The notes: a model not told the origin generated them from the letters alone. A stretch of 48,934 nucleotides of DNA from Candidatus Nanopelagicales bacterium (GCA_030700225.1 JAUYJT010000003.1:1-48934); one strand, 5' to 3'; shown: positions 481 through 26,549, counted from the first letter of the stretch. Numbers and translations: made by a program.

Positions 481-628
481 CCCAAATCCGAAGAGCCGCT
501 ATGACACACATCACTGACCCCTCACCCGATCGGACCTCCAGCGGCAACCGGAAAGACCCGAAACACCGATGAAGCCTGGCTAGATGTCGGGTGCGACCGA
601 CTTGGGCACTGGCCCGGGGGAGGTGCGG

Positions 629-3600
629 ATGACTTCGGTAGCGCGCAAAGCACTGGTGATCGTGACCTCGCTGGGAACGTTCGCAGCGCTGGCGATCGGG
701 GTTCCCGCCGCGTCGGCATCCGTCCCGATGGCGGCGACACCGCAGGCAAGCTTGTCACAGGCCCAGGTCGATTCGGCAGCGTCCCGGACAGCCCCCTCGA
801 AACTCAAGAAACGCCACGCGAAGAAGCGCGCCAAGAAGCAGCGCGCGCTAAGCAAGCGCCAACGGGCTGAGCTTCGACGGGCCCGCGCCAAGAAGACCTC
901 GGCGCCCACTGCCTCCACATTCCCCCAGATGGGGGGACCCCTCCCCCTTCCCGCTTCGCGGGTGGGGGGACCCCCAGTGACCGGAGTGACGGTCTCATGG
1001 AAGGTGGACAACGAGTGGACATCGGGCTTCCAAGTCTCGGCGGAGATCGCCAACCACAGCGGCAAGCCGCTTGACCCGTGGACGGTCGACTTCGCTACAG
1101 CGAACACCATCTCGTCCATCTGGGACGCCACTTCATCCCAAATCACTGGAGGTTTCCGAGCCAAAGGGCCAAGCTGGGCTCCGAGTCTCCCTGACGGAGC
1201 CACGGCAAGATTCGGGCTAGTCGCCAACAAGGTCGAGGGAGCATCGCTGACGCCGAGCTCTTGCGCTGTCGCGGGAACGACCTGCACTGTCGTGGGCGCC
1301 ACGCCCACGCCGACACCGACGCCGACACCGACACCGACCCCGACACCGACCCCAACCCCGACGCCGACCCCAACCCCGACGCCGACCCCCTCTCCAGCGC
1401 CTACCCAGCCGCCCCTGCCGGACGGCTTCGCTGTGGCCCCCTACGTCGACATGACGCTTTGGCCAACCGCGAACCTCGTCGCCGCCAAGGACGGTTCCGG
1501 GGTCGCCACCTACAGCCTCGCTTTCGTGGTTGACGGTGGCGGCTGCACCCCGAAGTGGGGAGGCATGATCGCCCCAGGAAGCGCAGACGCGGCCGGTATC
1601 GAAGACGCGATGACCGCCCTGCGAGACGCGGGCGGTGACTACATCATCAGTTTCGGCGGAGCCAACGGGTCCGAGCTAGCGACCACATGCCCCAGCGTCG
1701 AGTCGCTCAAGGCTGCCTACAAGTCCGTCATAGACCGTTACGCCGTCACCCGCGTTGACTTCGACGTCGAGGGCGGCGCCGTAGCGAACACTGCGGCGAG
1801 CACAAGACGTGGCAAGGCGCTTGGACAGCTCCAGTCCGAGATGGCTGCTTCTGGCAAGAACCTCGACGTGTCCTTGACTCTGCCCGTGCTGCCAACAGGT
1901 CTGACCCCCGACGGCATCAACACCGTCAACGCGACGAAGTCCGCTGGAGCCCGCGTTGACCTCGTCAACGTCATGGCCATGGACTACGGATCCTGGGCGG
2001 CCCCTAATCCGTCCGGCAAGATGGGCCAGTACGCGATCGACTCAGTCAACAACACTTCAGCTCAGCTGTCCGACTTGTGGCCAGATCTGACCGACGGCCA
2101 GCGGCTGGGCCACATCGGAGTGACACCGATGATCGGCCAGAACGACGTGGCGGCTGAGTTCTTCACGACCGCGGATGCCACTCAGGTTGGCCAGTGGGGC
2201 CGCGACAACTCGATTGGCATGGTCAGCTGGTGGTCAGTTGGACGCGACAAGCCTTGCGCGACCCCTGGCGGGAGCGCCAGCCCAAGCTGCAGCAGCGACC
2301 CCGCTCCCGCGTGGGCCTTTGCCCTGAGCTTCACCGGCGGCGAAGTCCCAACGCCAACGCCCACGCCAACGCCAACGCCGAGCCCCACGCCGAGCCCGAC
2401 CCCCACGCCCACAGCAGACGCCAGCATCAATCTGAGCCTTGAAGCCACCTCGGACTGGGGCTCGGGGCGGACGATGCAGGGCACGGTCAGGAACGATGGC
2501 CCGGCCACGACATCCTGGTCAGTCACCTTCGAATGGCCCATGTCGGCCAGCACGTGGAACGGCGACGCTACCTATGCCAACGGGAATCTGACAGTCGCGA
2601 ATGCTTCATGGAACGGGAACGTGGCGCAGGGGAGTAGTACGACTTTCGGATTCAACGACGGCTCACCATCGTTGCCGACACCGTCCTCGTGCACCGCGAC
2701 AGCCAGCGGGAGCGAGGTTCCGTGTTCCCTGAACGGCGAGACCCCCACACCGACCCCGACCCCGACGCCGACACCGACCCCGACCCCGACGCCGACCCCC
2801 ACGCCGACGCCGACCCCCACCGAGTCCGGAAGCCCAGGCGAGCCAGCTCCTCCGGGCGGCATGAAGTCAGTGGCCTACTACACGGCTTGGTCCACCTACG
2901 GACGCGACTACCAGGTAGCTGACATCCCAGCCAAGCAGCTGACACACATCAACTACGCGTTCGCCAACATCGCCAATGGCGAGTGCGTCCTGGGCGACCC
3001 CTACGCCGATACCGACAAGGCCTTCCCCGGAGACTCCTGGGATACCGGCGCCAAACGAGGCAACTTCAATCAGTTGAACAAGCTGAAGGCGGCCAACCCC
3101 AACCTGCGCACTCTCATTTCTGTCGGCGGCTGGACTTGGTCCGGCAACTTCTCGGCGGCTGCGGCAACTGCCGCCTCACGGCACAAGTTCGCCACTTCGT
3201 GCGTCGCGTTCATGAAGCAGTGGGGATTCAACGGGATCGACATCGACTGGGAGTACCCCGTCGATGGAGGACTGACGCCGGGCATGGCAGCGGACAAGCA
3301 CAACTACACGCTGCTCCTTCAGGCGCTTCGCGAGAAGCTGGACGCACAGAGCGCCGCCGACGGCTCAGGACACTACTTGCTGACCGTCGCGGCACCTGCG
3401 GGCCCCAGCAACATCGCCAACCAGGAGGTTCCCGGCGTCTCGGAAACCGTTGACTGGATCAACGTGATGACCTACGACTTCCACGGCAGCTGGGACAAGA
3501 CAACCGGCCACAACGCACCACTGCACCCGGACGCGGCCGACCCAGGTCCGGCCGGGTTCGACGTCGCGAGCGCTGTGTCAGCTTGGCGTCAGGCCGGGGC

Positions 3601-3982
3601 TCCAGCCAGCAAGATTGTGGTCGGAGTGCCGTTCTACGGTCGCGGCTGGAGCGATGTGACCAGTGCCAACAACGGACTATTCCAGCCCGCTGCGGGTACG
3701 CCCACCGGAACCTGGGAGCCCGGCGTCTTCGACTACAAGGATCTGGCCGCGAACTACGTCGACAAGAACGGGTACGTGCGGTATTGGGACGAGACCGCCG
3801 ACGTGCCGTACCTGTGGAACCCGGGCACTCGCACATTCATCTCCTACGACGACCCGCAGTCGATCGCGAGGAAGGCGAAGTTCATCAAGGCGAATGGACT
3901 GGCGGGGGCGATGTTCTGGGAGATGTCATCAGACACCAGCGACGAGGCACTGCTGGACGCTCTGAACGAGAACATGGGCTGA
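629..3982 (+). CDS. Secreted bifunctional chitinase: two GH18 domains and two CBM2-like domains
   Basis: This is a secreted chitin-degrading enzyme of about 1117 aa. ATG 629 is preferred over ATG 584 because a GGGGGAGG ribosome site lies just upstream and the protein then begins with a signal peptide ending near ASA. In order: signal peptide; a very basic Lys/Arg segment; a segment encoded by a palindromic repeat (PLPLPASRVGGPP); a CBM2-like domain (about nt 977-1300); a long TP-repeat linker; a first GH18 domain (about nt 1411-2330) with D-x-D-x-E at D377, D379 and E381 (VDFDVEG); a TP/SP linker; a second CBM2-like domain (about nt 2420-2735); a third TP linker; and a ChiA-like GH18 domain with D871, D873 and catalytic E875 (IDIDWEYP). 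Both catalytic glutamates are intact. GH18 enzymes use substrate-assisted retaining catalysis. The two domains belong to different GH18 subgroups, so endo/exo synergy is plausible but inferred. Confidence 0.93.
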   Translation: MTSVARKALVIVTSLGTFAALAIGVPAASASVPMAATPQASLSQAQVDSAASRTAPSKLKKRHAKKRAKKQRALSKRQRAELRRARAKKTSAPTASTFPQMGGPLPLPASRVGGPPVTGVTVSWKVDNEWTSGFQVSAEIANHSGKPLDPWTVDFATANTISSIWDATSSQITGGFRAKGPSWAPSLPDGATARFGLVANKVEGASLTPSSCAVAGTTCTVVGATPTPTPTPTPTPTPTPTPTPTPTPTPTPTPSPAPTQPPLPDGFAVAPYVDMTLWPTANLVAAKDGSGVATYSLAFVVDGGGCTPKWGGMIAPGSADAAGIEDAMTALRDAGGDYIISFGGANGSELATTCPSVESLKAAYKSVIDRYAVTRVDFDVEGGAVANTAASTRRGKALGQLQSEMAASGKNLDVSLTLPVLPTGLTPDGINTVNATKSAGARVDLVNVMAMDYGSWAAPNPSGKMGQYAIDSVNNTSAQLSDLWPDLTDGQRLGHIGVTPMIGQNDVAAEFFTTADATQVGQWGRDNSIGMVSWWSVGRDKPCATPGGSASPSCSSDPAPAWAFALSFTGGEVPTPTPTPTPTPSPTPSPTPTPTADASINLSLEATSDWGSGRTMQGTVRNDGPATTSWSVTFEWPMSASTWNGDATYANGNLTVANASWNGNVAQGSSTTFGFNDGSPSLPTPSSCTATASGSEVPCSLNGETPTPTPTPTPTPTPTPTPTPTPTPTPTESGSPGEPAPPGGMKSVAYYTAWSTYGRDYQVADIPAKQLTHINYAFANIANGECVLGDPYADTDKAFPGDSWDTGAKRGNFNQLNKLKAANPNLRTLISVGGWTWSGNFSAAAATAASRHKFATSCVAFMKQWGFNGIDIDWEYPVDGGLTPGMAADKHNYTLLLQALREKLDAQSAADGSGHYLLTVAAPAGPSNIANQEVPGVSETVDWINVMTYDFHGSWDKTTGHNAPLHPDAADPGPAGFDVASAVSAWRQAGAPASKIVVGVPFYGRGWSDVTSANNGLFQPAAGTPTGTWEPGVFDYKDLAANYVDKNGYVRYWDETADVPYLWNPGTRTFISYDDPQSIARKAKFIKANGLAGAMFWEMSSDTSDEALLDALNENMG
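938..976. repeat. 39-bp palindromic repeat, copy 2 (inside the chitinase gene)
   Basis: This copy matches 442-480 except for one base (T instead of C after CGCGGG). It sits in frame between the basic segment and the first CBM2-like domain and is translated as a Pro/Gly-rich linker. An additional CCCCC-AGAT-GGGGG hairpin directly precedes it (921-936). Confidence 0.75.
1303..1410 (+). repeat. Thr-Pro linker repeat 1 of the chitinase
   Basis: Imperfect ACGCCGACC / ACCCCGACG units encode an almost pure (TP)n linker between the first CBM2-like domain and the first GH18 domain. Similar shorter tracts lie at about 2347-2412 and 2741-2825. Such tracts are prone to slippage. Confidence 0.8.
2741..2825 (+). 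repeat. Thr-Pro linker repeat 3 of the chitinase
   Basis: ACCCCGACC-type units encode (TP)n between the second CBM2-like domain and the C-terminal GH18 domain. Confidence 0.75.
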
Positions 3983-11573: not shown

Positions 11574-12944
<1,371 letters not shown>

Positions 12945-13933
12945 TCCTTCTCCGCGATCCCCGCCGTCAACGCCGCCGATCCGTACAAGATGACCGATTG
13001 CAGGTAGAGGACAAGCAGTACAGCGACGGGAGCGGCGAATGCGCCATACTGGGGCTTGGATACCGAGTAAGCCACAACTCCGTCCATTACGTACTGCAGG
13101 ACCGCGATTCCGGCCCCGCCGACGGCCGCTCCGATCAGTCGAGGTTGGCGATCTGGCCGGATCCCACCCATGGTCCCGAGAATCACATACACGACGATCC
13201 CATCCAGGGCCACGGACACCAACGCCGTGAAAGCGACCACCGCACCGCGGGATACGGCACCATCGAACCCAATCGCGTTCATCACAGGTTGCGCGAACGA
13301 CATGATGGCGACCGATAACACAAGCGAGATCGCGATTAGCGGCGCGATCAGTAGCGACCACCCGACCAACCTCACGCGGGCCAACACCATGTTTCGCCCG
13401 TCCTTGGCCGCACCGTAGATCTGGTGCAACGAAGCGCTCACCGCCACCATCGCCCCGCCGCTGGCATACGCCAGCGCGACCAGACCCAGGATCGACGTCG
13501 TCTGTCCCACCTTGCGCAGCTGTTCGGCGTCGATCCCGCCGACTCCGAGCACCCCAGGAAATTCCTGGCGCAGCGCCTCTTCGATGAACTTGGCCGCCTG
13601 ATCGCTTCCTATAAGGGCCGTCAGCCCGAAGGCGAGCGCGGTCAACGCGAAGACAGCCAGGAACAGGTAGTACGCCGTACCCGCCGCCAGCAGAGACGCC
13701 CCCGACAAGGAGTAGCGCAGAAGGCCCCGATAGACGACCCCGGCTGTTCGGCTGCGATCTTCGACGACGCTCAGCGTCCGCACGACCGACTTGGGCGGAG
13801 GATCGATGGATTCCCCTGGGATTGGCGGCAGCGTCGTGACTGACATCTTCCAACCCTGGCGCACTTCCAAGGCCGCCGCTGCCCGACTCCTGCGACTTTC
13901 ACCACCAGATATTGACCAACAATGCTCTTCCGC

Positions 13934-13962
13934 TTGAGACCCGCGTCACATGTTGCGATGCT
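13934..13962 (+). promoter_or_regulatory. Sigma-70-type promoter of the hydrogenase operon
   Basis: -35 TTGAGA (13934-13939), a 17-nt spacer and -10 GATGCT (13957-13962). The expected transcript start falls on GTG 13969. This is the best-matched promoter in the window. Confidence 0.6.
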
Positions 13963-13968
13963 GTGCGG

Positions 13969-15129
13969 GTGAACCAAGCGACCGCCTCCCAGGCTCCCCC
14001 CTCAGTCGTCCCAAGAGCAGGGCTGGATGACCTGATGGGCAGCCTGCGCCAAGACGGATACCAGCTCATTGGGCCAACGGTCCAAGGCAACGCGATCTGT
14101 GTAGCACCCATTGACTGCTTGGTGGACTTGCCCCGGGGATTGGGCGACTCCCAGGACAACGGGCAGTACAGGGTCCTCGAGCGGGACGACGGGGCGTACT
14201 TCGCCTTCGCCAATCCTGCCGGCGGCTGGAAGAAGTACCTGTTCCCGCCGCGCAGCGTGCTGTTTCGTTCCCACGTTGACGGCGACTCGGTAACGGTCGA
14301 AGACGTCGCAGATGAAATTCCCAAGCGAGCCTTCTTCGGAATCCGCGGGTGCGACCTGGCGGCAATCGGCGTACAGGACGCGGTGTTCATGGCAGACAGG
14401 ACTACAGACCCCGCCTACGCGGCTAGACGCGAGGGCCTGTTCATAGTCGCCGCGAACTGCTCGGATCCCTCCGCGTCCTGCTTCTGCCCATCGATGGGAA
14501 CCGGACCCGCCGTGCGTAGCGGAGCAGATCTAGTCATCACCGAGCTGGACCCAGCGGACCCCGACAGCCACAGGTTCCTGATCGACGCCCACACCGTGCG
14601 CGGGCAGTCTGTCTTGGCGCAACTGGGTGCGGGCCCCGCCACCCCAGAAGACATCGCCGCGGCAGACAGGGTCAACACGTCAGCGAACGAACGCATCGAG
14701 CGGCACATGGACACCGAAGGTCTGCCGCAGCTGCTGCGCGACTCGGCCAACCATCCACAGTGGAAGGACGTCGCCAAGCGGTGTCTTTCCTGCGGCAACT
14801 GCACCATGTCGTGCCCGACTTGCTTCTGCTCCGACATCGACGACGTACCGAACGCCGCGGAAGGTGTCAATGAGCGCGTTCGGGTCTGGAGTTCCTGCTT
14901 CCAGCTGAGCCACTCTTACATCCACGGAGGTTCGATCCGCCTCTCGCCAAAGTCCCGATACCGCCAGTGGATGACGCACAAACTATCCACTTGGTGGGAC
15001 CAGTTCGACATGTCGGGCTGCGTGGGCTGCGGCAGATGTATCACGTGGTGCCCGGTCGGCATCGACATCACCGCGGAAGTGCGGGCGATTCGGGACGACC
15101 CTGCCGATCCGGTTGAGGAGAGAGCATAG
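13969..15129 (+). CDS. hyhB: Group 3b [NiFe] hydrogenase beta subunit (4Fe-4S electron-transfer)
   Basis: This cytoplasmic iron-sulfur subunit of about 386 aa carries electrons between the small subunit and the flavin subunit. The N-terminal and middle part matches HydB-type sulfhydrogenase beta subunits ([26 protein letters not shown]). Two C-terminal Cys clusters follow: [17 protein letters not shown] and [21 protein letters not shown] 13969 is chosen over ATG 13912 because a well-placed promoter makes it a leaderless start and the N-terminus then fits the family. It is the first gene of a tight six-gene operon (3-nt gap or overlaps throughout). Homologues in group 3b enzymes couple H2 to NAD(P). 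Confidence 0.9.
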
Positions 15130-15131
15130 AC

Positions 15132-15605
15132 ATGGAGTCGACACGAGAGCAGCTAGACCATCATCGCTTCTTCAAGAAGATGCCCGCGGAGCTTCTCGAT
15201 AGGCTCGCGGACTGCGCCGAGAGGGTCTCGTTCGATGAAGACGAGGAGATCCTGACCGAGGGTTCTCCTGCCAACAGCTTCTACGCGGTCCTGTCGGGAC
15301 GGGTCAGCGTTGGCCTACGCACTCCCAATCGGGGACTGGCGACGATCGAGACGCTCCACTCTGGCGACATCCTCGGCTGGTCATGGTTGATTCCCCCCTA
15401 CCGGTGGAACTTCGATGCGATTGCCCTGGAACCTGTGGACGCTATCGAGTTCCACGCCGACCGGCTACGACCGTTCATGGACAGCGACCCGCAAGCAGCG
15501 CATGCCCTGATTCTTGGCATCGCCGCCGTGATGGAAGAGAGGCTCCAATCAGCAGGCATACGTCTCCTCGATCTCTATGGCGGCAACCATGACGCATCTA
15601 GCTGA
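15132..15605 (+). CDS. Stand-alone cyclic-nucleotide-binding-like (Crp-N) protein in the hydrogenase operon
   Basis: This 157-aa protein consists of one cNMP-binding beta-barrel ([20 protein letters not shown], then [19 protein letters not shown] and [12 protein letters not shown]) plus a C-terminal helix. It has no DNA-binding domain. In the phosphate-binding cassette, the Glu that normally contacts the ribose is replaced in GDILGWSW, while an Arg is kept (PYRWNF), so ligand binding is doubtful. It lies 2 nt after the beta subunit and overlaps the gamma subunit gene. The position inside the operon suggests a regulatory or structural role in the enzyme; this is inference. Confidence 0.85.
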
Positions 15606-16443
15606 CACGCAGGAGCCCACGCGGGTGAAGCCGATGCAACCAGCGCTGTACCAACTGACGGAGCACGCGCGCGAGACCAAGAACTCCGTGACGATCACGC
15701 TGGCCCCGCTTGGTGACCCTGTGCCCCAAGGCATGCCCGGCCAGTTCAACATGCTGTGGGCGTGGGGGCTCGGTGAGATTCCAATCTCAATCAGCGCCGT
15801 ACCGTCGCCGGACGTCATTGTCCACACGATCCGGGAAGTCGGTGCGGTCAGCCACGCTCTGTGCGCGGCCAAGCCCGGAACCGCGATCGGAGTCCGGGGG
15901 CCCTTCGGAAACACATGGCCAGTGGATGACGCCCGCGGTCACGATGTCGTCATCGTGGCCGGCGGTATCGGCATGGCGCCGCTTCGTCCCGTGATCCACG
16001 CGATCCTCGCTGATCGCTCGGCTTTCGGCGACGTGACACTGGTAGTCGGAGCCCGACACGCCAAGGACCTGCTGTTCCGTGGGGAGCTGGACGGCTGGTG
16101 GCGGAGCCAGAGCATCCGTGTACGCACCATAGTCGACGAATCGACTCCTGACTGGCGCGGAAACGTCGGCATCGTCACCCAGGAGCTTCGACGCGTAACC
16201 GTCGACCCCGAACGCACAGTCGCGATGGTGTGCGGGCCCGAGATCATGATGCGGTTCGTGGCCAACCACTTGATCGACGAGGGTGTTGACCCCGAGAGGA
16301 TCGCGGTGTCGATGGAGCGCAACATGCAGTGCGGGATCGGGCAGTGCGGCCACTGTCAACTGGCGGGCGACTTCGTCTGCACGGACGGTCCTGTGTACAC
16401 CTGGCAGTCAGCTCTACCGTTGATGGAAGTGCGTGAGCTATGA
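15589..16443 (+). CDS. hyhG: Hydrogenase gamma subunit (FAD/NAD(P)-binding, 2Fe-2S)
   Basis: This is the diaphorase-like subunit that exchanges electrons with NAD(P)(H), about 284 aa. It belongs to the ferredoxin-NADP reductase/dihydroorotate dehydrogenase electron-transfer family. The FAD-binding barrel comes first ([19 protein letters not shown]), then the nucleotide-binding fold ([25 protein letters not shown]), and a C-terminal [2Fe-2S] motif [11 protein letters not shown] with a further Cys in [11 protein letters not shown] 15589 has GGCGG five nt upstream; ATG 15577 is also possible. The start overlaps the preceding gene and the stop overlaps the small-subunit start (ATGA). Confidence 0.9.
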
Positions 16444-17222
16444 GCGCAAGGAAACCCAGAGTCGCCATTTGGAAGTTCGCGTCCTGTGACGGATGTCAGC
16501 TGACACTGCTGGACTGTGAGGACGAGTTGCTGGCCGTCGCCGGCGCGGTGGAGTTCGCCTACTTCCTCGAAGCGACTAGCACCGTTTCGGGCGGACCGTA
16601 CGATCTGTCGATCGTTGAAGGGTCCGTGACAACGGAGTCCGACGCCGAGCGGATCCAGGGAATCAGGGAACAGTCGGCGGCCCTGATTTCGATCGGTGCT
16701 TGCGCGACCAGCGGCGGCATCCAGGCCCTGCGGAATTTCGCGGACGTCAAAGAGTACATCCCGATGGTCTACGCCCACCCGGAGTACATCAGCACCCTGG
16801 ACACTTCGACGCCGATCTCAGATCACGTGAAGGTGGATTTCGAACTGCGCGGCTGCCCCATCAGCAAAGCACAGCTGCTCCAAGTCATCTCCCAGTTCCT
16901 GTTGGGCGGAGTCCCCGAGCTCGAGTCAGCGGCCGTCTGCCTCGAGTGCAAGCGGCGCGGAACGACCTGCCTCGTCGTCGCGGACGGCACACCATGCCTT
17001 GGGCCCGTGACTCACGCGGGCTGCGGGGCCCTGTGTCCGGCGTTCGATCGTGGCTGCTTCGGATGCTTCGGCCCATCGGACACGACTAACGTCCCAGCTC
17101 TCGCGGACCGTCTGCGCGAGCTCAACATGACCGACGGCGCGATCGAACGGCTGGTCCACACATTCGCCGCCGCCGCACCCGAATTCCGAGACTTCGGGCT
17201 CACCGAGGAGGCCAAGCCGTGA
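16440..17222 (+). CDS. hyhS: Group 3b [NiFe] hydrogenase small (delta) subunit
   Basis: This iron-sulfur subunit of 260 aa wires the NiFe site to the beta/gamma module. The proximal cluster motif CDGCQL (C16, C19) is followed by [17 protein letters not shown] and C-terminal Cys motifs ([32 protein letters not shown]). There is no Tat signal, as expected for a cytoplasmic group 3 enzyme. It overlaps its neighbours by 4 nt on both sides (ATGA, GTGA). Confidence 0.93.
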
Positions 17223-18520
17223 CTCACCGAACAGGTGGCCGCATTCTTCGTGTCAAAGCCCTGGCACGAGTCGAAGGCGAAGGCGCCCTGAAGGTCACCA
17301 TTCGAGGTGACGAGGTCGTACAGGCAGAGCTCACCATCTACGAGCCGCCACGGTTCTTCGAGGCCTTCCTGCGGGGACGCAGCTACGAGGAGCCCCCGGA
17401 CATCACAGCGCGCATCTGCGGGATCTGCCCCGTGGCCTACCAGATGAGCGCGTGCCGGGCGATTGAGGATGCCTGCGGCGTGAAGGTCGAAGGCCAGATC
17501 GCTGATCTGCGTCGGCTTCTGTACTGCGGTGAGTGGATCGAGAGCCACGCTCTGCACATCTACCTGCTCCACGCTCCGGACTTCCTGGGAGTGAGCAGTG
17601 CGATAGACCTGGCTGTCACCCACCGCGAGATCGTCGAGCAAGCACTCCGGCTGAAGAAACTCGGCAACAGTATCCTCGAGATCGTCGGCGGCCGGGCGAT
17701 CCACCCGATCAACGTCAAAGTCGGCGGCTTCCATCAGGCCCCAAACGCCGACGAGTTGCGCGCGCTGATCCCCGAGCTGGACTGGGCGCGGCAGTGCTCC
17801 CTAGAAACAGTGCGTCTGGTCTCGACGTTCAACTTCCCCGAACTCGAAGGGGAGTGGGATCTGATCGCGCTGCTTGGCACCGACAAGTACCCAATCATCG
17901 GCGACCGGATCGCATCGGTCAGCGGACGCCTGGATATCCCGATTTCCGAGTTCCGCGACCACATCACTGAAGAGCATGTCGAACACAGCAACGCGCTGCA
18001 CGGGCACTGGGACTTGGGCGAGTACGCCGTGGGCCCGCTCGCCCGGTACAGCCTCAACTATGACCTGCTTCCCCAGGTCGCCCGCGACGCTGCCGCTGAG
18101 GTTGGACTCGGACCCGACTGCAGGAACCCGTTCAAGAGCATCATCGTCCGCGCCGTCGAGCTCCTCGCCGCCTGCGACGAGGCCCAACGTCTCATCAACG
18201 AGTACGTCACGCCAGAACAACCGTTCGTGGAGGTGACTCCAAGGGCAGGCGTCGGGCATGGGATGTCCGAAGCACCCCGCGGCTTGTTGTATCACCGCTA
18301 TGAGCTGGACGACGAGGGGATCGTGCAGTCCGCGACGATCGTGCCGCCAACGGCACAGAACCAGCCCGCCATCGAGCACGATCTGCTGCACGTGGTCCAG
18401 GACAACCTCGACCTCGGAGACGCTGACCTGACAGGGCTATGCGAACAGACCATCCGCAACTACGACCCCTGCATCTCCTGCGCGACGCACTTCCTCGATC
18501 TTCAGATCGACCGAGACTAG
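17219..18520 (+). CDS. hyhL: Group 3b [NiFe] hydrogenase large (alpha) catalytic subunit
   Basis: This catalytic subunit (433 aa) carries the NiFe(CN)2CO centre. Both nickel-binding motifs are complete: L1 RICGICP (C67, C70) and L2 DPCISCATH (C418, C421, H424). A nine-residue tail, FLDLQIDRD, follows H424 and is the expected piece removed by the maturation protease encoded next. Its length and L1/L2 form fit group 3 bidirectional NAD(P)-linked enzymes. The start GTG 17219 overlaps the small-subunit stop. No hyp maturation genes other than the protease are in the window. Confidence 0.94.
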
Positions 18521-18996
18521 TGGTGAGGCCGGTCCTTGTGATCGGTGTGGGTAACCCATACCGACGCGACGACGGTGTCGGGTTGGCGATTCTTGATCGG
18601 CTGCGATCCCAACCGCTCGAGGAAGTCGAGATCGTCGAGGAAACTGGCGAGTCTGCTGGGCTGATCGCACGCTGGGCCGGGTACAGCTTCGTGATCATGA
18701 TCGACGCCGTCTCCTCCGGGGCCGCACCAGGAACCGTCCACCGCATCGAATGCAGCGACGGGAACTGGGCAGTTCCCGCCCGCAACAGCAAGGCCAGCAC
18801 GCACGGGCTCGGCGTAGCTGAGGCTGTGCAGTTAGGCCTGGCCCTGGACCGGATTCCCGACCGGCTGACAATCCTCGGCGTTGAGACCAAGGACGTCGCG
18901 AACGGCGAGGGGCTGTCACTCGAAGTCGCGGCCGCCGTTGACGCTGTCGTAGCCGCCGTGATCGCGGAAGTTGAGGCAGTGCTCACACTCAGCTGA
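18520..18996 (+). CDS. Hydrogenase maturation endopeptidase (HycI/HyaD family)
   Basis: This protease of about 158 aa clips the C-terminal tail of the large subunit after nickel insertion. Signatures are VLVIGVGNPYRRDDGVG at the N-terminus, the conserved Asp in MIDAVSSG and the His in STHGLG; these Glu/Asp/His-type positions bind Ni in the family. GTG 18520 shares its first base with the large-subunit TAG, and GTG 18523 is equally possible. A longer reading frame from 18439 would overlap the large subunit and adds no family sequence. It is the last gene of the operon. Confidence 0.9.
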   Translation: MVRPVLVIGVGNPYRRDDGVGLAILDRLRSQPLEEVEIVEETGESAGLIARWAGYSFVIMIDAVSSGAAPGTVHRIECSDGNWAVPARNSKASTHGLGVAEAVQLGLALDRIPDRLTILGVETKDVANGEGLSLEVAAAVDAVVAAVIAEVEAVLTLS

Positions 18997-19067: not shown

Positions 19068-19871
19068 CTACAGCCGATCCGCCGCCTTCGACGCCATCCT
19101 CAGGGTGAACGCCTTTGACGCGGTGCCTAGCTCGCCGAAGACCACCGCTGTCGCGAAGCGACCCTTGCGAATCGCCACCGCGTAGGCTTCGCCGTTCGCG
19201 AACAGATGCGTCGCCTTCAGCTTGTACGCGATCGTCTGGTGCCCGTACTTGGGCGAAGACGTCCGCTGGACTGTGACGTTGACCGGACCGTATTCCGTTG
19301 TGACCACTACTGACCCGCATGCCGCTGCTTGGGTCTTGAGCTGGGCCATCGACGCCTTCGCGGCCTTCTTGGTCCTGAACCTTCCGACCGTTTGCCCAAG
19401 CCCAGCGCTCACGTTCGACTCACCCTCCGTGAACGCCCTGTCCTTGGACTTCTTGGCCCCCGGCAGGCTTGAATCCGTAGGAAGGCATTTGGCTGGCGAC
19501 ACCGACACCGAGCCCAGGGCCTCGGATCGCTGACTATCCGACACCGTTCGCGTCACCCAGCCAGACCCAAGATCCGACGCGCTCAGAAGCTTCGTCTTCA
19601 GCGGAATGCGGTTCTCGGCGCGCCTTTTCTTCGCGAGCTTGGCGCGGCGGCACTTCTTCCCCTTCTTGCCCTTCTTGCACTTCGTCTTCGTCGCGGCCTT
19701 GGACGGGCTTCCAGCAACCGTGCTGACAGACACGCCGCTGACTGTTGAGCTGGCTGCCTGCGCTGGCGCGACGAACATCGTCACTGGCAGCGCAACACTT
19801 GCGGCCACGAGACCACAGGCCGCTTTCACTCTTGCTGACGATCTGAACGAACTGCTCTGCGTGAACGACAC
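19068..19871 (-). CDS. Secreted Lys-rich protein with PknH-like extracellular domain
   Basis: This 267-aa exported protein is not assigned to a pathway. GTG 19871 has GGAGG five nt upstream. The signal peptide ends near APAQA. A strongly basic segment (KCKKGKKGKKCRRAKLAKKR) follows, like the one behind the signal peptide of the chitinase. The C-terminal ~170 residues (KLLSASDLGSGWVTRTVSD..., with three Cys) resemble the sensor/PknH-C-type extracellular domains of actinobacteria, in which a conserved L-x-x-x-D-L-x-x-G-W opens the domain. Ligand and role are unknown. Confidence 0.65.
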   Translation of the reverse strand: MSFTQSSSFRSSARVKAACGLVAASVALPVTMFVAPAQAASSTVSGVSVSTVAGSPSKAATKTKCKKGKKGKKCRRAKLAKKRRAENRIPLKTKLLSASDLGSGWVTRTVSDSQRSEALGSVSVSPAKCLPTDSSLPGAKKSKDRAFTEGESNVSAGLGQTVGRFRTKKAAKASMAQLKTQAAACGSVVVTTEYGPVNVTVQRTSSPKYGHQTIAYKLKATHLFANGEAYAVAIRKGRFATAVVFGELGTASKAFTLRMASKAADRL

Positions 19872-20022: not shown

Positions 20023-22599
20023 CTACTCCGGCTTGGCCCTTACGTACAGCCACGTACCCAAGCCGGCGCCGAGCAGCAGCAGAATGATGCTGAACACTAG
20101 CTTCGTCGACGCGGGGGCGTCGGTCCCACCGGGCGCGGCCACTTTGAACGTGTACATCGCCTGCGTCGAGGCGTCGCCTCCCTCAGCCGATCCGTACGGG
20201 AAGCCCTCGCCGGAGTGGAACCGGATGTCCATCTGCTTGTTGATGGCGGTGCCCTCGGCGGACGCGTTGACCAGCTTCTGCGAGAAGCCGTCGATGTCCT
20301 CGATGTCCTTCACGAAGCCACCGATCGTGCCATACGCGAGCTGCGAGATCAGGGCTGGCAACTGGTCAGCCGTCGACTTTATGTGCGGAGCCGCCTTGAA
20401 CACGCCATTGGCGATACCGAACACCTCATTCACCGCTGGCTCAATCTTCTCCACGATCTCCAGAACACCCTCATTGACCTGAGCGACAGCTGCCGTGTTG
20501 GCATTCGAAATGATGTCGAGCGCCTGCATCAGGCCACAGGACGAGAGGTCATCAAACACAGTCTTGTTCGGACACGGCCGATCCATCGCCTTGCGCACCG
20601 CTGGCATGCTGTTCCTCAATTGGACCAGAGCCTTCTGAATGTCAGGCAGAGTCTTCGAAAGTGTCGTAACCAACGGCACCAAGTCTTCAATGTCCTCGCT
20701 GATGCCGCCTACATTGTCCAGAATGTCGTCCAGCTGCTTTTCCATTCGCTTACCAGCCGCCGCGCAGGCTCCCGCGTTCCACACGGCGTCGCCCTGCTTG
20801 TTCAGCAGGCCCTGCAGCTTGGTCATGTTGGCCTTCGAATCACCAGAGAGTGCGTCGATACCGGACTGGAACGATGCCTTCATCGTCCCCTCGTTCCAGG
20901 CCTTCCTAGTGGCGTTGCCAGTCGTACAGGTCGAGTCCAGATGGTCGATCAGCAACGAGTCGATGATCTGTCCAACTGTCTGCGCTCCGAAGCACTTCGC
21001 CCCTGGCACACCACCGTCGCAGAGAAGCGTGTATCCATCCGGAGCATCAGGCGTTTTCGTCTGCTGCGCGAACAACGGGTCAAGCGCCGGAAGCATCTCC
21101 TGCACGAACTCCAGGCACTCGGCAGCTGTTTGCCCATCGCAAAACCCTCCCGGCTTCATCAAGAAGTCCACGGCCAGGCCTTCAGCGAGTTCTACGAAGT
21201 CCTTCTTCCCCAACGCCTGGGCGATCTCATCAGGCGTGAAGCCCAGGAACACTCCGAAGACGTCCAGGTATCCGGTGACCTGCTCCACCAGCGGGAGGTA
21301 CTGCTTGAGAAGTTTCTCAACAGTGTCCAGTTTCGCGATTACCTTGGTCAGCGTCGCCTGGGTCTTCTTGGACGTCGCCTGAGCTAGGTACTTCGCTACC
21401 AACTCCTCGCCTTTTTCCCCAGCGGCGTTCACGCCAAGCAGCAAGCCCCCGATAGAGGAGACTTCCTTACCTGTCTTCTCCAGGAACTCGTCCGCCTTCT
21501 TCGGGTCGAGGTACATCTTGCCCAACATGTCCAGAATGGGGTCAACCTTGTCCTTCAGGACCTTGCCGACGACGCCAGATGCCTTGCCGACGTCGTTTTG
21601 AACCTTCAACAGCATCGGGAGAGCCTTACCCTCGAGCAAGTCCTCAATCGTGGGACCGAACTTGTCGATCACGCCCTCTACCGAGGCGATCGCATCGCCG
21701 CTCGTCGACTTCGGAGTCGCGGTGAGCGTCACCGCTGGCAAAGAGGCATTCTCGGCCCGACCCTTGATCGTAAGAGTGCCGTTCGGGTCCTCCTTGTTCA
21801 GCACAGTCGGAATGAGCAGCTTGCCGCCGGTAATGTCCTGGCCAGTCGAGAACCCGCTGTTCGCCCACGGTGCCGTTAGGGCCGCCCAGCCTTTTCCGAA
21901 TACGCCGTCGAAATGCACGTAGAAGGGCACGGGGATCGGCGCGGTCTTCCTCTGGACCTTCCTCTGAGCGTTCATGAATTTCACGGTCTCGGTCTTCGTC
22001 GTGTTGTTGACGAAGTTGTAGTTCAGTTCGACATCACCGGTTAGCGAGGTCGCGTCATTCGCGTCGACCGTCTCGCCATTCACCTTGACCTCTACGTTGA
22101 ACGTGACCCCAGGCTGACCCTTGAACTGGCCAGCCGAAGCGATCATCTGCTGAACCTGACCGCCAGAGTTCTGCACGTCGTAGACGATCGAATTCCCGTC
22201 GGTCTTGAGCTTCGAGATCGAGTTCACGTCAACCGGGTTGTCCGTGCCAACCGGGACCTTCACAGTCGCGGAGCCGTTGCCGGACACGTTCGTGGCCACG
22301 TACAGACCCTGGCCCTGGGACTCACCCCCCGCAGACGTCGACGCGGCAACGACCTTCCCAACCGCCACATTCAGCGGCCCATCAACGGAGGCGGCGCCTT
22401 GCCCAGCTCCCCAGTCCGCGAACATCTCCCGCACGCCAGCAGCGCCAGCTCCAGCCGGATCAGCCGCAGCCCCAGCCCCGCCACCGACCGCAGCCACAAC
22501 CAGCGACACAGCGCACACGGACGCGGCCAGTCGAGCCGCTGTCCCGGTCGGAGAGCCGGAGCCCCTGATCCTTCGCTTGATGCCCGGAAAACGCTTCAC
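20023..22599 (-). CDS. Large secreted, C-terminally anchored protein, module copy B (unknown family)
   Basis: This 858-aa protein is not recognised. GTG 22599 overlaps the upstream stop (GTGA). The signal peptide is Arg-rich with a long Ala/Val/Gly core. About residues 60-300 are beta-rich, with EVKVNGETVDANDA, LTGDVELNYNFVNNT, PVPFYVHFDGVFGKGW and KGRAENASLP; the same landmarks occur in the paralogue at 23227. Residues ~300-800 are largely amphipathic helix (long stretches of Val/Leu/Lys/Asp with Gly), with about ten scattered Cys that could form disulfides. A single helix (LVFSIILLLLGAGLGTWLYV) and a four-residue tail close the protein. There is no LPXTG. The likely topology is an outside domain with one C-terminal anchor. 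Confidence 0.75.
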   Translation of the reverse strand: MKRFPGIKRRIRGSGSPTGTAARLAASVCAVSLVVAAVGGGAGAAADPAGAGAAGVREMFADWGAGQGAASVDGPLNVAVGKVVAASTSAGGESQGQGLYVATNVSGNGSATVKVPVGTDNPVDVNSISKLKTDGNSIVYDVQNSGGQVQQMIASAGQFKGQPGVTFNVEVKVNGETVDANDATSLTGDVELNYNFVNNTTKTETVKFMNAQRKVQRKTAPIPVPFYVHFDGVFGKGWAALTAPWANSGFSTGQDITGGKLLIPTVLNKEDPNGTLTIKGRAENASLPAVTLTATPKSTSGDAIASVEGVIDKFGPTIEDLLEGKALPMLLKVQNDVGKASGVVGKVLKDKVDPILDMLGKMYLDPKKADEFLEKTGKEVSSIGGLLLGVNAAGEKGEELVAKYLAQATSKKTQATLTKVIAKLDTVEKLLKQYLPLVEQVTGYLDVFGVFLGFTPDEIAQALGKKDFVELAEGLAVDFLMKPGGFCDGQTAAECLEFVQEMLPALDPLFAQQTKTPDAPDGYTLLCDGGVPGAKCFGAQTVGQIIDSLLIDHLDSTCTTGNATRKAWNEGTMKASFQSGIDALSGDSKANMTKLQGLLNKQGDAVWNAGACAAAGKRMEKQLDDILDNVGGISEDIEDLVPLVTTLSKTLPDIQKALVQLRNSMPAVRKAMDRPCPNKTVFDDLSSCGLMQALDIISNANTAAVAQVNEGVLEIVEKIEPAVNEVFGIANGVFKAAPHIKSTADQLPALISQLAYGTIGGFVKDIEDIDGFSQKLVNASAEGTAINKQMDIRFHSGEGFPYGSAEGGDASTQAMYTFKVAAPGGTDAPASTKLVFSIILLLLGAGLGTWLYVRAKPE

Positions 22600-23192
22600 T
22601 TCGCACCACCTATGATCCCGTCCACACTTGTGATTTGCGCTGCTGGTTCTCTGGGGGCCACATCATCGCCTTGACCGCCGCTGTCGGCAGGACGCCCAGA
22701 CTTCTCTGGGAACAGCTCCACCGCGATGATGACCAGGAATCCGATCGCCGACATCGCCAGAATCGACAGGAACTCGCCTGGCAACTGCTCCGCAGCGGTC
22801 CACGGCTTCGTTTCCATCAGGGAAGTGACACTCGCGACGTACACCAACATCCCCAGAAGCAACGTCCACGCCTGAATCCTGTTCGCCGTGAGACCCGACA
22901 CGACAGCCACGACCAACAGCACCAGGCCTAGCGCGATGGCTCCCCCCCAAGCTGACTCTCCGCCGGGAAACACGCCCAGCCGCAGTGCCGCGAATCCCAC
23001 TCCAAGGACCAACCCGAGCAAGTAGCCGATTAGCCGCTCCAGCGGCGCGCCGACTCGAACCACAGCGATAATCAGGCCGCCACCAGCTCCGAGGATCGTG
23101 TTGTTGAGATCCATCCCGAGTGCGCCCCCAATCATGAGGCCGATCCCACCAATCACAGCGGCTGCGAGGCCGATCAGAAACGTTCTCGCCAT
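22596..23192 (-). CDS. Small polytopic membrane protein ending in IGGAK, module copy B
   Basis: This ~198-aa membrane protein is not recognised. ATG 23192 has AAGGAG six nt upstream and gives MARTFLIG, the same start as its paralogue at 26249. About six Gly/Val/Leu-rich helices fill residues 4-165 and a polar acidic tail ends SVDGIIGGAK. The last codons overlap the GTG of the large gene, so the two are translationally coupled. Its pairing with the large anchored protein in both module copies suggests a shared complex in the membrane. Confidence 0.75.
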   Translation of the reverse strand: MARTFLIGLAAAVIGGIGLMIGGALGMDLNNTILGAGGGLIIAVVRVGAPLERLIGYLLGLVLGVGFAALRLGVFPGGESAWGGAIALGLVLLVVAVVSGLTANRIQAWTLLLGMLVYVASVTSLMETKPWTAAEQLPGEFLSILAMSAIGFLVIIAVELFPEKSGRPADSGGQGDDVAPREPAAQITSVDGIIGGAK

Positions 23193-23226
23193 TGCGGGCT
23201 CCTTACTAGCTCCGTGGAATCCTTGG

Positions 23227-25707
23227 TCAACTCGAGCGACGACGCCGGTACAGGTACGTGCCCACACCAACGGCTACAGCCAGGAACACCAGCGCCAGCA
23301 CGACACCGGTAGCCCAGTTGCGCGCGTAGGGCGAGGCCTCCTGCTGGGTGATTTGGTAGGCGGTCATCGTGTTCGTGTCAGGTCCGACCGCCTTACCGTA
23401 GGGGTCCCCGTCGCCCGCCTTGGCCCGCGCGTTCATGGCCTGCAACGTCGCGCCCGTTTCCTCCACGAAGTTGCTGACCTTGGCGATCGCGTCCTGACCC
23501 TCGACGCCGTAGCCCGACGCTGTGTCCGCTATCACGTCCAGGATTTCGTTGGCAGCGCCAGGAATCGTGTCGGCGATGTCGTCCACCTGCTTCACGACGG
23601 CCTTGACGCTGTTGATCGCATTGACGATCGTCGGCACGTCGCCCCTCGCGCCATCCACGATCTTCCCGAACCCGATCAGGGCTTCTCCGATCAGGCCGTC
23701 CACGGAGCCGAAGAACTCCAGAACCTGAGCCACGCCACAGTTCTTGAATACCGACAGCAGGACGGGCAGGATGTGGTCCTTTATTCCGCTCATCCCGTAC
23801 TTCTGTAACGCGGCCAGAATCGGATCGATTATGTCCGACGAAGTGCATTTGTCGTTGCTCAGCAGATTCGCGAGGATCTTCACGTCCTTCATGATCTCGT
23901 TGAAGATCTTGTCCATTACTGGGCTGTCCCCGTATTCCGCCAGCAGGTCGAGTACGAGGACGGCTGTGTCAATCCAGGGATGGACTTCTTCATCCCAAAG
24001 GCCCGCTCCTACGATTACCAGCGGGATGAGGGTTTCATTAATGGACTCGCAGGCCGACTCGGTCAGTATCTGCTGAATGAGCTTCTTGTAGGGGATCGTG
24101 TCCGGCAGCAGACCCCCCACTAGGACCAGCAGGCTCGGCATCATAGCGCCAACGCTCTGGTTGTCCAGAGTCGTCTGGAGGTCCTCCAGGTCGCCTTGCC
24201 AAGGCTTCTTCTTCCCCGCCTTGATGGCTGCCGCCAGCGCGTTGTAGCCATCGGAGCCCTTGGTGATCGGTATGATTACCTCGACCGGTCCGTAGCCGTA
24301 GTAGTCGCTGGTCTTCCCGACGGTTGGACACGCCTGGTCGAGAGTGGCGGAGTCATTCTCGAGTTGGGTGAGGTCGAGCGACGTAATGGCCTTGTCCAGC
24401 TTCTTCAGGCCCTTCGCGGCCTGCCCCGACTGGGGCGCGGCGGTCTTGATCAGGGCCTTCAGCCACTTCAGGATGGCTGGCGCGTCCTTCCGGACGACGT
24501 TTGAGACTGACTTCGCGAGGTTGGCGACACGTCCTTGGGCTGTCTTATTCGCGCCCATCAACTCGCCCAGCTTTGTCAGCCCGACGCCCAAGCTGCCAAG
24601 GTCCCGGTCCAGGTTCTCGGGGTTGACGTTGATTCGCTCAATCTTCTTGAAGACTGGCTTGAGGTACTCCTTGTCCAGCTTCTGAAGAGCTCCCACGTAT
24701 CCGCTGACGAGCCGGACTGCGGAAAGAACTTGACCGATGACACCACCGATGGCCGCGTCAGCCGGCGCGAGGGCATCCTTCTCGATCATCGGGACAACGG
24801 TTGTGAGCAGTCCACCCATGTAGGTGTCCATGTCCAGCACGATCGACGTCGTCTTCGTAGACGGCAGGGACGCGTTGTCCGCCCTGGCCTTGACCGTTAG
24901 CTTCTGCGTCGTCCCGCCGTACAGCCCCTGGACGACCGGGAACAGTACGACTGTGCCCGACAGATGTGTCTGGTTCGGCTCGACCGCAGACGTCAGACCA
25001 GGGGCGTCCTGGACATACCACCCCGAGCCGAACGGGACATCGAAGGTCGCTCCGAACGGAACGGGAACTTCAACCTCTTTCTTCGTGGTTTTGCCCGTGA
25101 TGTCCTTGTAGGAGATCTCCTGCTTGCGGGCCGTGTGGTTTGTGAATGTGTACGTGATCTCCGCGTCACCGGTCAGCCCATAGGCTTCGTCTGGGTTGAT
25201 GGACTCCCCGTTGACCTTCACCTCTGTCTTCACGCTGACCGGCAGATCGCCCTTGTAGAACCCGCCGAAGTCGAAGAAGTTGCTGACCTGGCCGGAGGCG
25301 CTGTTGATATCGACGGTCTTCTCAGAGTCCGGACCCATCGGGATCTTGACTTCTCCAGTGCCCTGGCCAGAAACCTGGCCGTTGACCAACATGATGTTGA
25401 AGGGAGTCACTCCCCCGCTCTGATCCGTAGTGACCGCGACGGTCTTGCCGACCGTGACCTTGAGTTTGTCGTCGCTGGCGGCAAGCGGAGACTGCTCGCC
25501 TGCCAGGGATTGGGAGAACAGGATCTCGTTCAGGGCCGAGGTCGGCGCCACAGGCGCCGCGCTCGCCCCGACGCTCGCGCTTCCCGCAACCACGGCGATG
25601 CACACTGTCGCGGCGACTAGCCTGCGGCGGGTCGATCGCCGGAGGGCCTTCGGCGGAGAATTCAGCGAGCTGATTAGTCTCGCCCTGACGCTGTTCAGCA
25701 GTTTCAC
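23227..25707 (-). CDS. Large secreted, C-terminally anchored protein, module copy A (unknown family)
   Basis: This 826-aa paralogue of the protein at 20023 is not recognised. GTG 25707 overlaps the upstream stop (GTGA). A long basic n-region and hydrophobic core end near ASAAPVAP. The beta-rich N-terminal third carries EVKVNGESINPDEA, LTGDAEITYTFTNHT, EVPVPFGATFDVPFGSGW and KARADNASLPS, matching copy B at the same order and spacing. A ~450-residue helical region follows (repeated amphipathic segments, only about five Cys). The C-terminus is a single membrane helix (VVLALVFLAVAVGVGTYLY) with RRRRSS. The identity outside the landmarks is low, so the duplication is old. Confidence 0.75.
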   Translation of the reverse strand: MKLLNSVRARLISSLNSPPKALRRSTRRRLVAATVCIAVVAGSASVGASAAPVAPTSALNEILFSQSLAGEQSPLAASDDKLKVTVGKTVAVTTDQSGGVTPFNIMLVNGQVSGQGTGEVKIPMGPDSEKTVDINSASGQVSNFFDFGGFYKGDLPVSVKTEVKVNGESINPDEAYGLTGDAEITYTFTNHTARKQEISYKDITGKTTKKEVEVPVPFGATFDVPFGSGWYVQDAPGLTSAVEPNQTHLSGTVVLFPVVQGLYGGTTQKLTVKARADNASLPSTKTTSIVLDMDTYMGGLLTTVVPMIEKDALAPADAAIGGVIGQVLSAVRLVSGYVGALQKLDKEYLKPVFKKIERINVNPENLDRDLGSLGVGLTKLGELMGANKTAQGRVANLAKSVSNVVRKDAPAILKWLKALIKTAAPQSGQAAKGLKKLDKAITSLDLTQLENDSATLDQACPTVGKTSDYYGYGPVEVIIPITKGSDGYNALAAAIKAGKKKPWQGDLEDLQTTLDNQSVGAMMPSLLVLVGGLLPDTIPYKKLIQQILTESACESINETLIPLVIVGAGLWDEEVHPWIDTAVLVLDLLAEYGDSPVMDKIFNEIMKDVKILANLLSNDKCTSSDIIDPILAALQKYGMSGIKDHILPVLLSVFKNCGVAQVLEFFGSVDGLIGEALIGFGKIVDGARGDVPTIVNAINSVKAVVKQVDDIADTIPGAANEILDVIADTASGYGVEGQDAIAKVSNFVEETGATLQAMNARAKAGDGDPYGKAVGPDTNTMTAYQITQQEASPYARNWATGVVLALVFLAVAVGVGTYLYRRRRSS

Positions 25708-26249
25708 TTTGCCCCGCCAATCACTGTGTCGATCCCGGATGCTTCAGCTTCTTCGGCCTCTTCCTTCGCTTCATCCGCTGCCTCTTCCTTGTCACGGAGA
25801 AGCTCCACGAACACGGCGATGACGAATCCGCCAGAGGAAGTCGCGAGAGCGACGAAGAACGCCGTCGGGTACTGGGTGAGGAAGAACCAACCTGTGCTCA
25901 GCAGCTGCTCGGTGTACATCGCGGCGAATACCCCGGCGCCGAGCACCATTGCCCACATCGGGAGCCGCCCGCCGGTCAGCCCCGAGATAACCGTCAGCAG
26001 CAGAATCACGATCACGAACCCGACCCATCCAACGAGCCCGGCGCCCAGGGCAATCAGTCCCAGGACAAGTCCGATCAGGAACGCGGCATACCGCGCCAGC
26101 GGCGAGTCTTCTTGCACGAGGCCCAGCACCAACCCGGCACCTACGCCCAGCAAGCCATTCTCGACTCCCAGGTTCAGTACTGACACGAGCAGCAAGACGC
26201 CCACGCCGAGAACCGCAGCGACTACGCCGAGCAAGAACGTCCTAGCCAT
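25704..26249 (-). CDS. Small polytopic membrane protein ending in IGGAK, module copy A
   Basis: This ~181-aa membrane protein is the paralogue of the one at 22596. ATG 26249 has GGAG five nt upstream and starts MARTFLLG. About six hydrophobic helices occupy residues 4-150. The cytoplasmic tail is very acidic (KEEAADEAKEEAEEAEAS) and ends GIDTVIGGAK. The stop overlaps the GTG of the large partner gene. It is the first gene of the four-gene run 26249 to 20023, with only 34 nt between the two modules. Confidence 0.75.
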   Translation of the reverse strand: MARTFLLGVVAAVLGVGVLLLVSVLNLGVENGLLGVGAGLVLGLVQEDSPLARYAAFLIGLVLGLIALGAGLVGWVGFVIVILLLTVISGLTGGRLPMWAMVLGAGVFAAMYTEQLLSTGWFFLTQYPTAFFVALATSSGGFVIAVFVELLRDKEEAADEAKEEAEEAEASGIDTVIGGAK

Positions 26250-26549
26250 GCCAGCTCCATTCCGTTGCTGTGAATGAGCACATGCGAGGAACACTGCCAC
26301 CGAGCAAGGCGGCGCGCCGGGTGTTTTCCAAACTACTGGCGGAATAATTCGGACAATTGCCGCAGGCGCCTCTTCGCGCCTCCTCGCATTGGCGAGTCGC
26401 AGGACCGCACGAGCTCGATCTATGTCTCAGCCGTGCCACTCGATAGTCGGGCGCACACCCGAATCGGCGTCACCCGAGGTCGGCGTGCTCCTCCCGTCCA
26501 GACTGGTGCACGGGTTCCCCATCAACGTGGCGGGCAGTAACTGGCGTGC
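26250..26549. other. Gene-free stretch upstream of the duplicated module
   Basis: I see no gene here. On the minus strand a weak promoter-like pair is present: TTGTCC (complement of 26351-26356) and TAGTTT (complement of 26330-26335), with a short 15-nt spacer. It would drive the module from about 26322. The ROK gene ends at 26550. Confidence 0.35.

Follow-up and report, generated by a model that had tools for sequence, protein, structure and literature searches.

The 48,934-nucleotide stretch of DNA analysed here (the window), from Candidatus Nanopelagicales bacterium (GCA_030700225.1 JAUYJT010000003.1:1-48934), carries at positions 20,023 to 26,249 two adjacent copies of a two-gene module, in which a gene for a small polytopic membrane protein (S) is directly followed by one for a large secreted protein (L) that ends in a single transmembrane (TM) anchor. 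All four genes lie on the minus strand, in the order small B, large B, small A, large A (Table 1). A preliminary description, drawn up from the DNA alone, had read this arrangement as a duplicated envelope module; the two pairs indeed lie exactly where it had placed them, and every motif on which it relied is present, namely EVKVNGE, LTGD(V/A)E, PVPF..F..FG(K/S)GW and K(G/A)RA(E/D)NASLP in the large proteins, and MARTFL(I/L)G and IGGAK in the small ones. The approximately six helices expected of the small proteins correspond to six long helices in an AlphaFold2 model of small A (built from 10 sequences; pLDDT 76).

Table 1. Features of the duplicated module and its flank (window coordinates)
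Feature	Position	Strand	Description
Non-coding gap 5′ of small B	26250-26549	-	Likely promoter site of the four-gene operon (predicted)
Small B (S)	25704-26249	-	181 aa, 6-TM, MARTFLLG...IGGAK; S-family hidden Markov model (HMM) E 3e-59
Large B (L)	23227-25707	-	826 aa, secreted, single C-terminal TM anchor at about residues 798-824
N-terminal beta domain of large B	24820-25461	-	Mu-homology-like fold in the AlphaFold2 model; last strand 778-788 after the helical insertion
Small A (S)	22596-23192	-	198 aa, 6-TM, MARTFLIG...IGGAK; homologue of the C-terminal 6-TM domain of the contig C14 MmpL
Large A (L)	20023-22599	-	858 aa, secreted, single C-terminal TM anchor
N-terminal beta domain of large A	21694-22371	-	Assigned by homology to the large B beta domain

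In both pairs, the stop codon of the small gene and the start codon of the large gene overlap within a GTGA tetranucleotide, and large B is separated from small A by a gap of ~34 nt; the four genes are therefore likely to be carried on one transcript, and the promoter is placed upstream of small B because the other junctions in the operon are overlaps or this short gap. The codons of the IGGAK ending cover the ribosome-binding region of the next gene, with AGGTGG or GGCGGGG 6-7 nt 5′ of the overlapping GTGA start. Since, in addition, this ending is not kept in most orthologues of the small proteins, IGGAK may in part be a signal for translational coupling, rather than serving protein function.

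The two copies are clearly paralogous. Large A and large B share 30% identity over 447 aa (E 6e-39) and a second matching block at the C-terminus (E 7e-10), with low identity in their helical part, while small A and small B are 38% identical over 160 aa (E 6e-18); the resemblance of both the smalls and the larges is far beyond chance. The S and L trees are alike, the window A proteins grouping with A genes and the window B proteins with B genes of other genomes. Four genomes, belonging to two families, have the A+B tandem, which in two of these genomes is truncated by contig ends, and in a mirror-tree comparison the S and L distances correlate at r 0.84, against 0.27 for the best of 2000 permutations. 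These observations bear out the proposal of an ancient tandem duplication with retained pairing, and place it before the split of the two families. Such agreement between trees reflects co-inheritance, and in itself proves neither contact between S and L nor the existence of A-B hetero-oligomers. A distant actinobacterial family has a second tandem duplication of the S-L module (L167:4871-11050, minus strand); its two pairs share a single distant clade of the trees, which suggests an origin independent of the duplication in the window.

The module is by no means confined to this genome, which rules out a pair unique to it. Among close relatives, 21 of 60 were found to carry L, as were 37 of 296 genomes sampled from the phylum Actinomycetota, and S was detected in 17/166 genomes of the order and 29/395 of the class; a pattern search with a narrower alignment of the small protein retrieved eight loci from Nanopelagicales or other actinobacterial metagenome-assembled genomes, and a scan of named genomes with large B as a single protein retrieved nothing. 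Among the 59 L genes in the fetched loci, the gene directly upstream was identified by profile as S in 47 cases and as an RND gene in seven. The other five comprise one cut by a contig end, two that follow a protein whose C-terminal part has about five TM helices, one that follows an 11-TM MMPL protein, and one (L164:7665-11411, plus strand) that is the sole uncut L without a polytopic gene detected directly upstream. Thus, in 57 of 58 uncut cases the gene immediately upstream of L encodes a polytopic partner, either S or an MmpL-type RND protein; some loci were fetched via S, which biases this partner count, and the figure for loci fetched via L alone is 36/37. The overall partner tally for L comes to 49 S and 8 RND proteins. 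Repeated co-occurrence of the pair across the phylum is precisely what a neighbourhood survey had been expected to reveal if the module were genuine, and both large proteins of the window display the family's traits: a beta domain, a C-terminal TM helix and a polytopic gene directly upstream.

The most informative relative lies in the same genome (2.6 Mb, 85 contigs), where a third L gene, on contig C14 (locus L033), directly follows and overlaps the end of a gene for a 947-aa MmpL-type RND transporter, to which it is translationally coupled. This L is homologous to large A and large B (E ~1e-9; beta-domain HMM 2e-23). The transporter (Pfam MMPL E 2e-76), besides which the genome yielded no other full-length MMPL protein, has an MmpL3-like core up to about residue 727, followed by ~200 extra C-terminal residues with 5-6 TM helices. 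This six-TM extension is a trait of this MmpL subgroup and does not define MmpL in general; it occurs in 15 of the 166 genomes of the order, and in 13 of those an L match lies just downstream. When profiles of 31 S sequences and of 15 MmpL extensions were compared with hhalign, they aligned over 140 columns across the helices (P 3e-10, probability 96.8%). Decoys with one profile reversed reached 12% and 7%; single sequences of 35 membrane proteins encoded at these loci gave ~1% or less, true relatives aside; and the family controls FUSC_2 and Pip scored 2.2% and 0.3% against S. Furthermore, when an HMM of the extension was run against 8299 six-frame segments, its matches at E <1e-3 were confined to four MmpLs and eight S proteins, one of the latter being small A (best S E 5.7e-9). 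At the level of sequence profiles, S is thus shown to be homologous to the C-terminal six-TM extension of MmpL.

The C14 locus and the window modules have in common the gene order, a polytopic protein and then L with overlapping ends, and the homology of the transporter's extension to small A and small B; the window copies, in contrast, are without the RND core, for which Pfam MMPL finds no match in any of the four proteins. A further difference concerns X-X-X-Leu-X-X-Gly heptads (TIGR03057), which are present in the MmpL-linked L and not in the large proteins of the window: the TIGR03057 cut-off is passed by MmpL-linked and some S-linked relatives, with no match for P0001 or P0002. In distant families, moreover, L follows an RND core of ~700 residues (704 aa) without the S extension. 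L is therefore the partner common to three arrangements, RND followed by L, an RND-S fusion followed by L, and S followed by L.

The large proteins have a signal-peptide-like N-terminus and a single C-terminal TM helix, in line with the secreted, anchored proteins of the preliminary description; as a refinement of it, they are not helical throughout. In the AlphaFold2 model of large B, the sole L model made (9 sequences, overall pLDDT 51), residues 83-290 and ~750-790 are predicted confidently, and the chain runs from a bilobed beta domain through ~480 mostly helical residues, largely of low confidence and including conserved cysteines in the family, to strand 778-788, which rejoins the beta domain after the helical insertion, and finally to the TM anchor. 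Conservation in L falls on the beta domain and the C-terminal end; in the model, the two lie packed against each other close to the membrane anchor. With Foldseek, the beta domain matched below E 1e-3 only mu-homology domains (AP, COPI, FCHo/SGIP1; best E 1e-5), and VIA-align returned a mu-homology fold in 50 of the 50 matches listed (Z 11.6 over 191 residues at 3.2 A), the alignment taking in the last strand after the insertion. In this one predicted model, therefore, the bilobed fold and strand order are those of the mu-homology domain of eukaryotic AP mu subunits, COPI delta and FCHo/SGIP1, from which L would differ in being extracytoplasmic and in carrying the ~480-residue helical insertion before the last strand.

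This is a resemblance of predicted folds, and fold alone indicates neither function nor descent. Profile searches showed no accompanying sequence similarity: searching the PDB up to E 10 with a profile of the L beta domain (48 rows) returned no mu-homology chain, and the 25 families listed, of 36, in the Pfam comparison did not include mu-homology. A PDB profile search with L gave coiled-coil noise only, including designed coiled coils, and a library of viral structures yielded no significant match. Weak Pfam matches of the large proteins to Prominin, PE, Vip3A_N and the like (E 0.01-0.3) were rejected as noise from helical composition. A literature search found nothing on a bacterial mu-homology domain, on the function of DUF1097 (see below) or on such an MmpL partner, which is no proof of absence.

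As for the small proteins, distant S proteins paired with L match DUF1097 (PF06496), a six-TM family of unknown function, above its curated gathering cut-off (E 7e-12), and S aligns with these at an hhalign probability of 95.9%; on these profile comparisons, S is assigned to a DUF1097-like superfamily. The S proteins of the window themselves do not match PF06496, and a PDB profile search with S returned nothing. DUF1097 proteins outside the module differ in having no L neighbour; in one actinobacterial family, DUF1097-like five-TM genes without an adjoining L were seen at five loci (L229, L230, L231, L233 and L235). Structure searches with the small A model matched best the TM domains of ALMT anion channels from plants (Z 9.0, Foldseek E >1), a score that is within background for helix bundles. 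The FUSC_2 profile gives no sequence link to S, and FUSC/ALMT finds no support as its sequence family.

Neither Pfam nor NCBIfam has a credible match to any of the four proteins, in keeping with the earlier statement that no named family has this layout. That statement stands for the proteins of the window, but it overlooked the links to MmpL and DUF1097, as well as the N-terminal beta domain. The family is nameless, yet not isolated: it is a pump-less branch of an MmpL-partner system of the Actinomycetota. Because the C-terminal membrane domain of an MmpL with a coupled L of its own is a homologue of S, we read the A and B modules as paralogues of the MmpL-L complex that lack the RND engine, the S-L pairs being accessory or structural units of hydrophobe or lipid export or of envelope assembly, an interpretation that we consider evenly poised between right and wrong. 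Each copy would then encode a bipartite envelope complex, consisting of S as a six-TM platform and of L as its partner with a signal peptide, with translational coupling between the two genes. L would be held by its single C-terminal TM helix, with the bilobed beta domain and the long helical region outside the membrane, and S would dock it there. Such units might act beside MmpL, in trans, or alone, as a pump-independent structural or conduit complex, in which the helical part of L may take the role of the coiled-coil tube of mycobacterial MmpL4/5.

The mycobacterial MmpS5-MmpL5 system (and MmpL4) offers a works-like comparison only, in that it likewise combines a membrane protein, an extracytoplasmic beta domain and a long disulfide-linked coiled coil in envelope export (PMC12501195). 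In MmpS5L5, the beta-domain protein and the long coiled-coil tube are thought to move substrate outward, and the tube of MmpL5 is essential for efflux in mycobacteria (PMC12501195). There, however, the coiled coil is part of the transporter and the beta domain belongs to a separate one-TM protein, whereas here beta domain and helices share one chain, L, apart from any pump; the MmpS profile (Pfam Mycobact_memb) gave a single match among 48 L domains, at E 0.08.

Several points weigh against this interpretation. No RND gene lies beside the window modules, so that the link to transport rests on homology of the parts. The helical part of L is predicted at pLDDT <50, which makes a tube or stalk shape only a guess. 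Finally, the neighbours conserved in relatives are genes for DNA polymerase I, an S1-domain (rpsA-like) protein, tyrosyl-tRNA synthetase and haem genes, that is, housekeeping genes, and gene neighbourhood was discarded as a clue to function. What is said here on evolution and architecture has good support, while a role in export or assembly is suggested by the company that the parts keep. Of the surface or transport role proposed initially, it is the transport part that gains support, indirectly, from the third L and its coupling to an MmpL whose C-terminal domain is homologous to S.

It is possible, though we think it rather doubtful, that S-L is autonomous and has no tie to RND transport, S being a small channel or structural protein of ALMT-like six-helix fold and L an extracytoplasmic gate, receptor or adhesin, with the MmpL fusion of Nanopelagicales a later, secondary event. 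S-L pairs are far commoner than RND-L pairs in the loci seen (49 versus 8) and may be the older form, and the distant RND partners of L, with their 704-aa core only, lack the S extension. The ALMT matches of the S model would also fit, but they lie at the level of helical-bundle background, with a FUSC profile score of 2.2%, and a tie of the module to RND systems is provided by L itself, which several distant families have in combination with RND transporters. An improbable alternative casts L as a surface adhesin or phage-receptor-like stalk whose insertion or secretion S merely aids, A and B being diversified surface variants. The signal peptide, the long helical region with conserved cysteines and its poor likeness between the copies agree with this, as does a giant BspA-type leucine-rich-repeat surface protein of >2300 aa that follows large A in one relative (L034:3-6989, minus strand). 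Yet what is conserved is the beta domain and the C-terminus, near the membrane anchor in the model, L is kept with RND transporters, and known adhesin repeat domains are absent from the window proteins in a Pfam search.

The layout of a beta/helical ectodomain and a TM bundle also recalls YhgE/Pip and EsaA/YueB, and the module might be such a protein (N-terminal TM helix, long helical ectodomain, C-terminal TM bundle) split over two genes. The X-X-X-Leu-X-X-Gly heptad repeat also occurs in Pip/YhgE, and L paralogues in the same order, including the MmpL-linked ones, carry it. Even so, this reading is largely refuted and very unlikely. No Pip, YhgE or EsaA model matches: the window proteins do not reach TIGR03061 (the YhgE/Pip N-terminal domain), the L beta domain scores 1.1% against the Pip N-terminal profile in hhalign and S 0.3%, and no NCBIfam model of EsaA/YueB, of the type VIIb secretion system (T7SSb), matches P0001 or P0002 at E 1. 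Membership of YhgE/Pip is thereby ruled out. The genome holds a separate true Pip/YhgE elsewhere (TIGR03061 E 4e-48), and in the pair the polytopic protein is encoded ahead of L, which has its own C-terminal anchor. EsaA is absent among the structure matches of L, an absence that carries no weight against it.

Elsewhere in the window, a gene directly downstream of large A (19068-19871, minus strand) encodes a secreted 267-aa protein with a lysine-rich stretch and a weak match to PknH_C that stays below the cut-off (E 0.006); this gene may be the operon's next member or a separate one. Adjoining the module and facing it, positions 13912-18996 (plus strand) carry NiFe hydrogenase/sulfhydrogenase-like genes (beta, gamma and alpha subunits and a probable maturation protease). 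Further away on the plus strand are genes for a 1132-aa protein with a chitinase-like part (584-3982) and for a GH1 beta-glucosidase above the NCBIfam cut-off (11574-12944).

Taken as pump-less paralogues of the MmpL-L complex, the modules cease to be an orphan pair and join a system widespread among actinobacteria, present in many families across the phylum, in which the MmpL pump is swapped for a small six-TM platform and the outer partner is retained. We would suggest, as a tentative and quite possibly mistaken extension, that L represents a bacterial extracytoplasmic adaptor family with a genuine mu-homology-type fold and a large helical insertion, interchangeable on an RND pump or a six-TM platform, and that S-L is a new class of envelope complex, not a broken exporter. 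With regard to the route that lipids and hydrophobic molecules take across the thick actinobacterial envelope after MmpL, L-type proteins are candidates for a partner on the outer side of the membrane, and S-L pairs allow the role of this partner to be tested without the pump. Should the predicted mu-homology-like fold prove real, the use of a complex fold familiar chiefly from the vesicle coats of eukaryotes would extend to the outside of the bacterial membrane.

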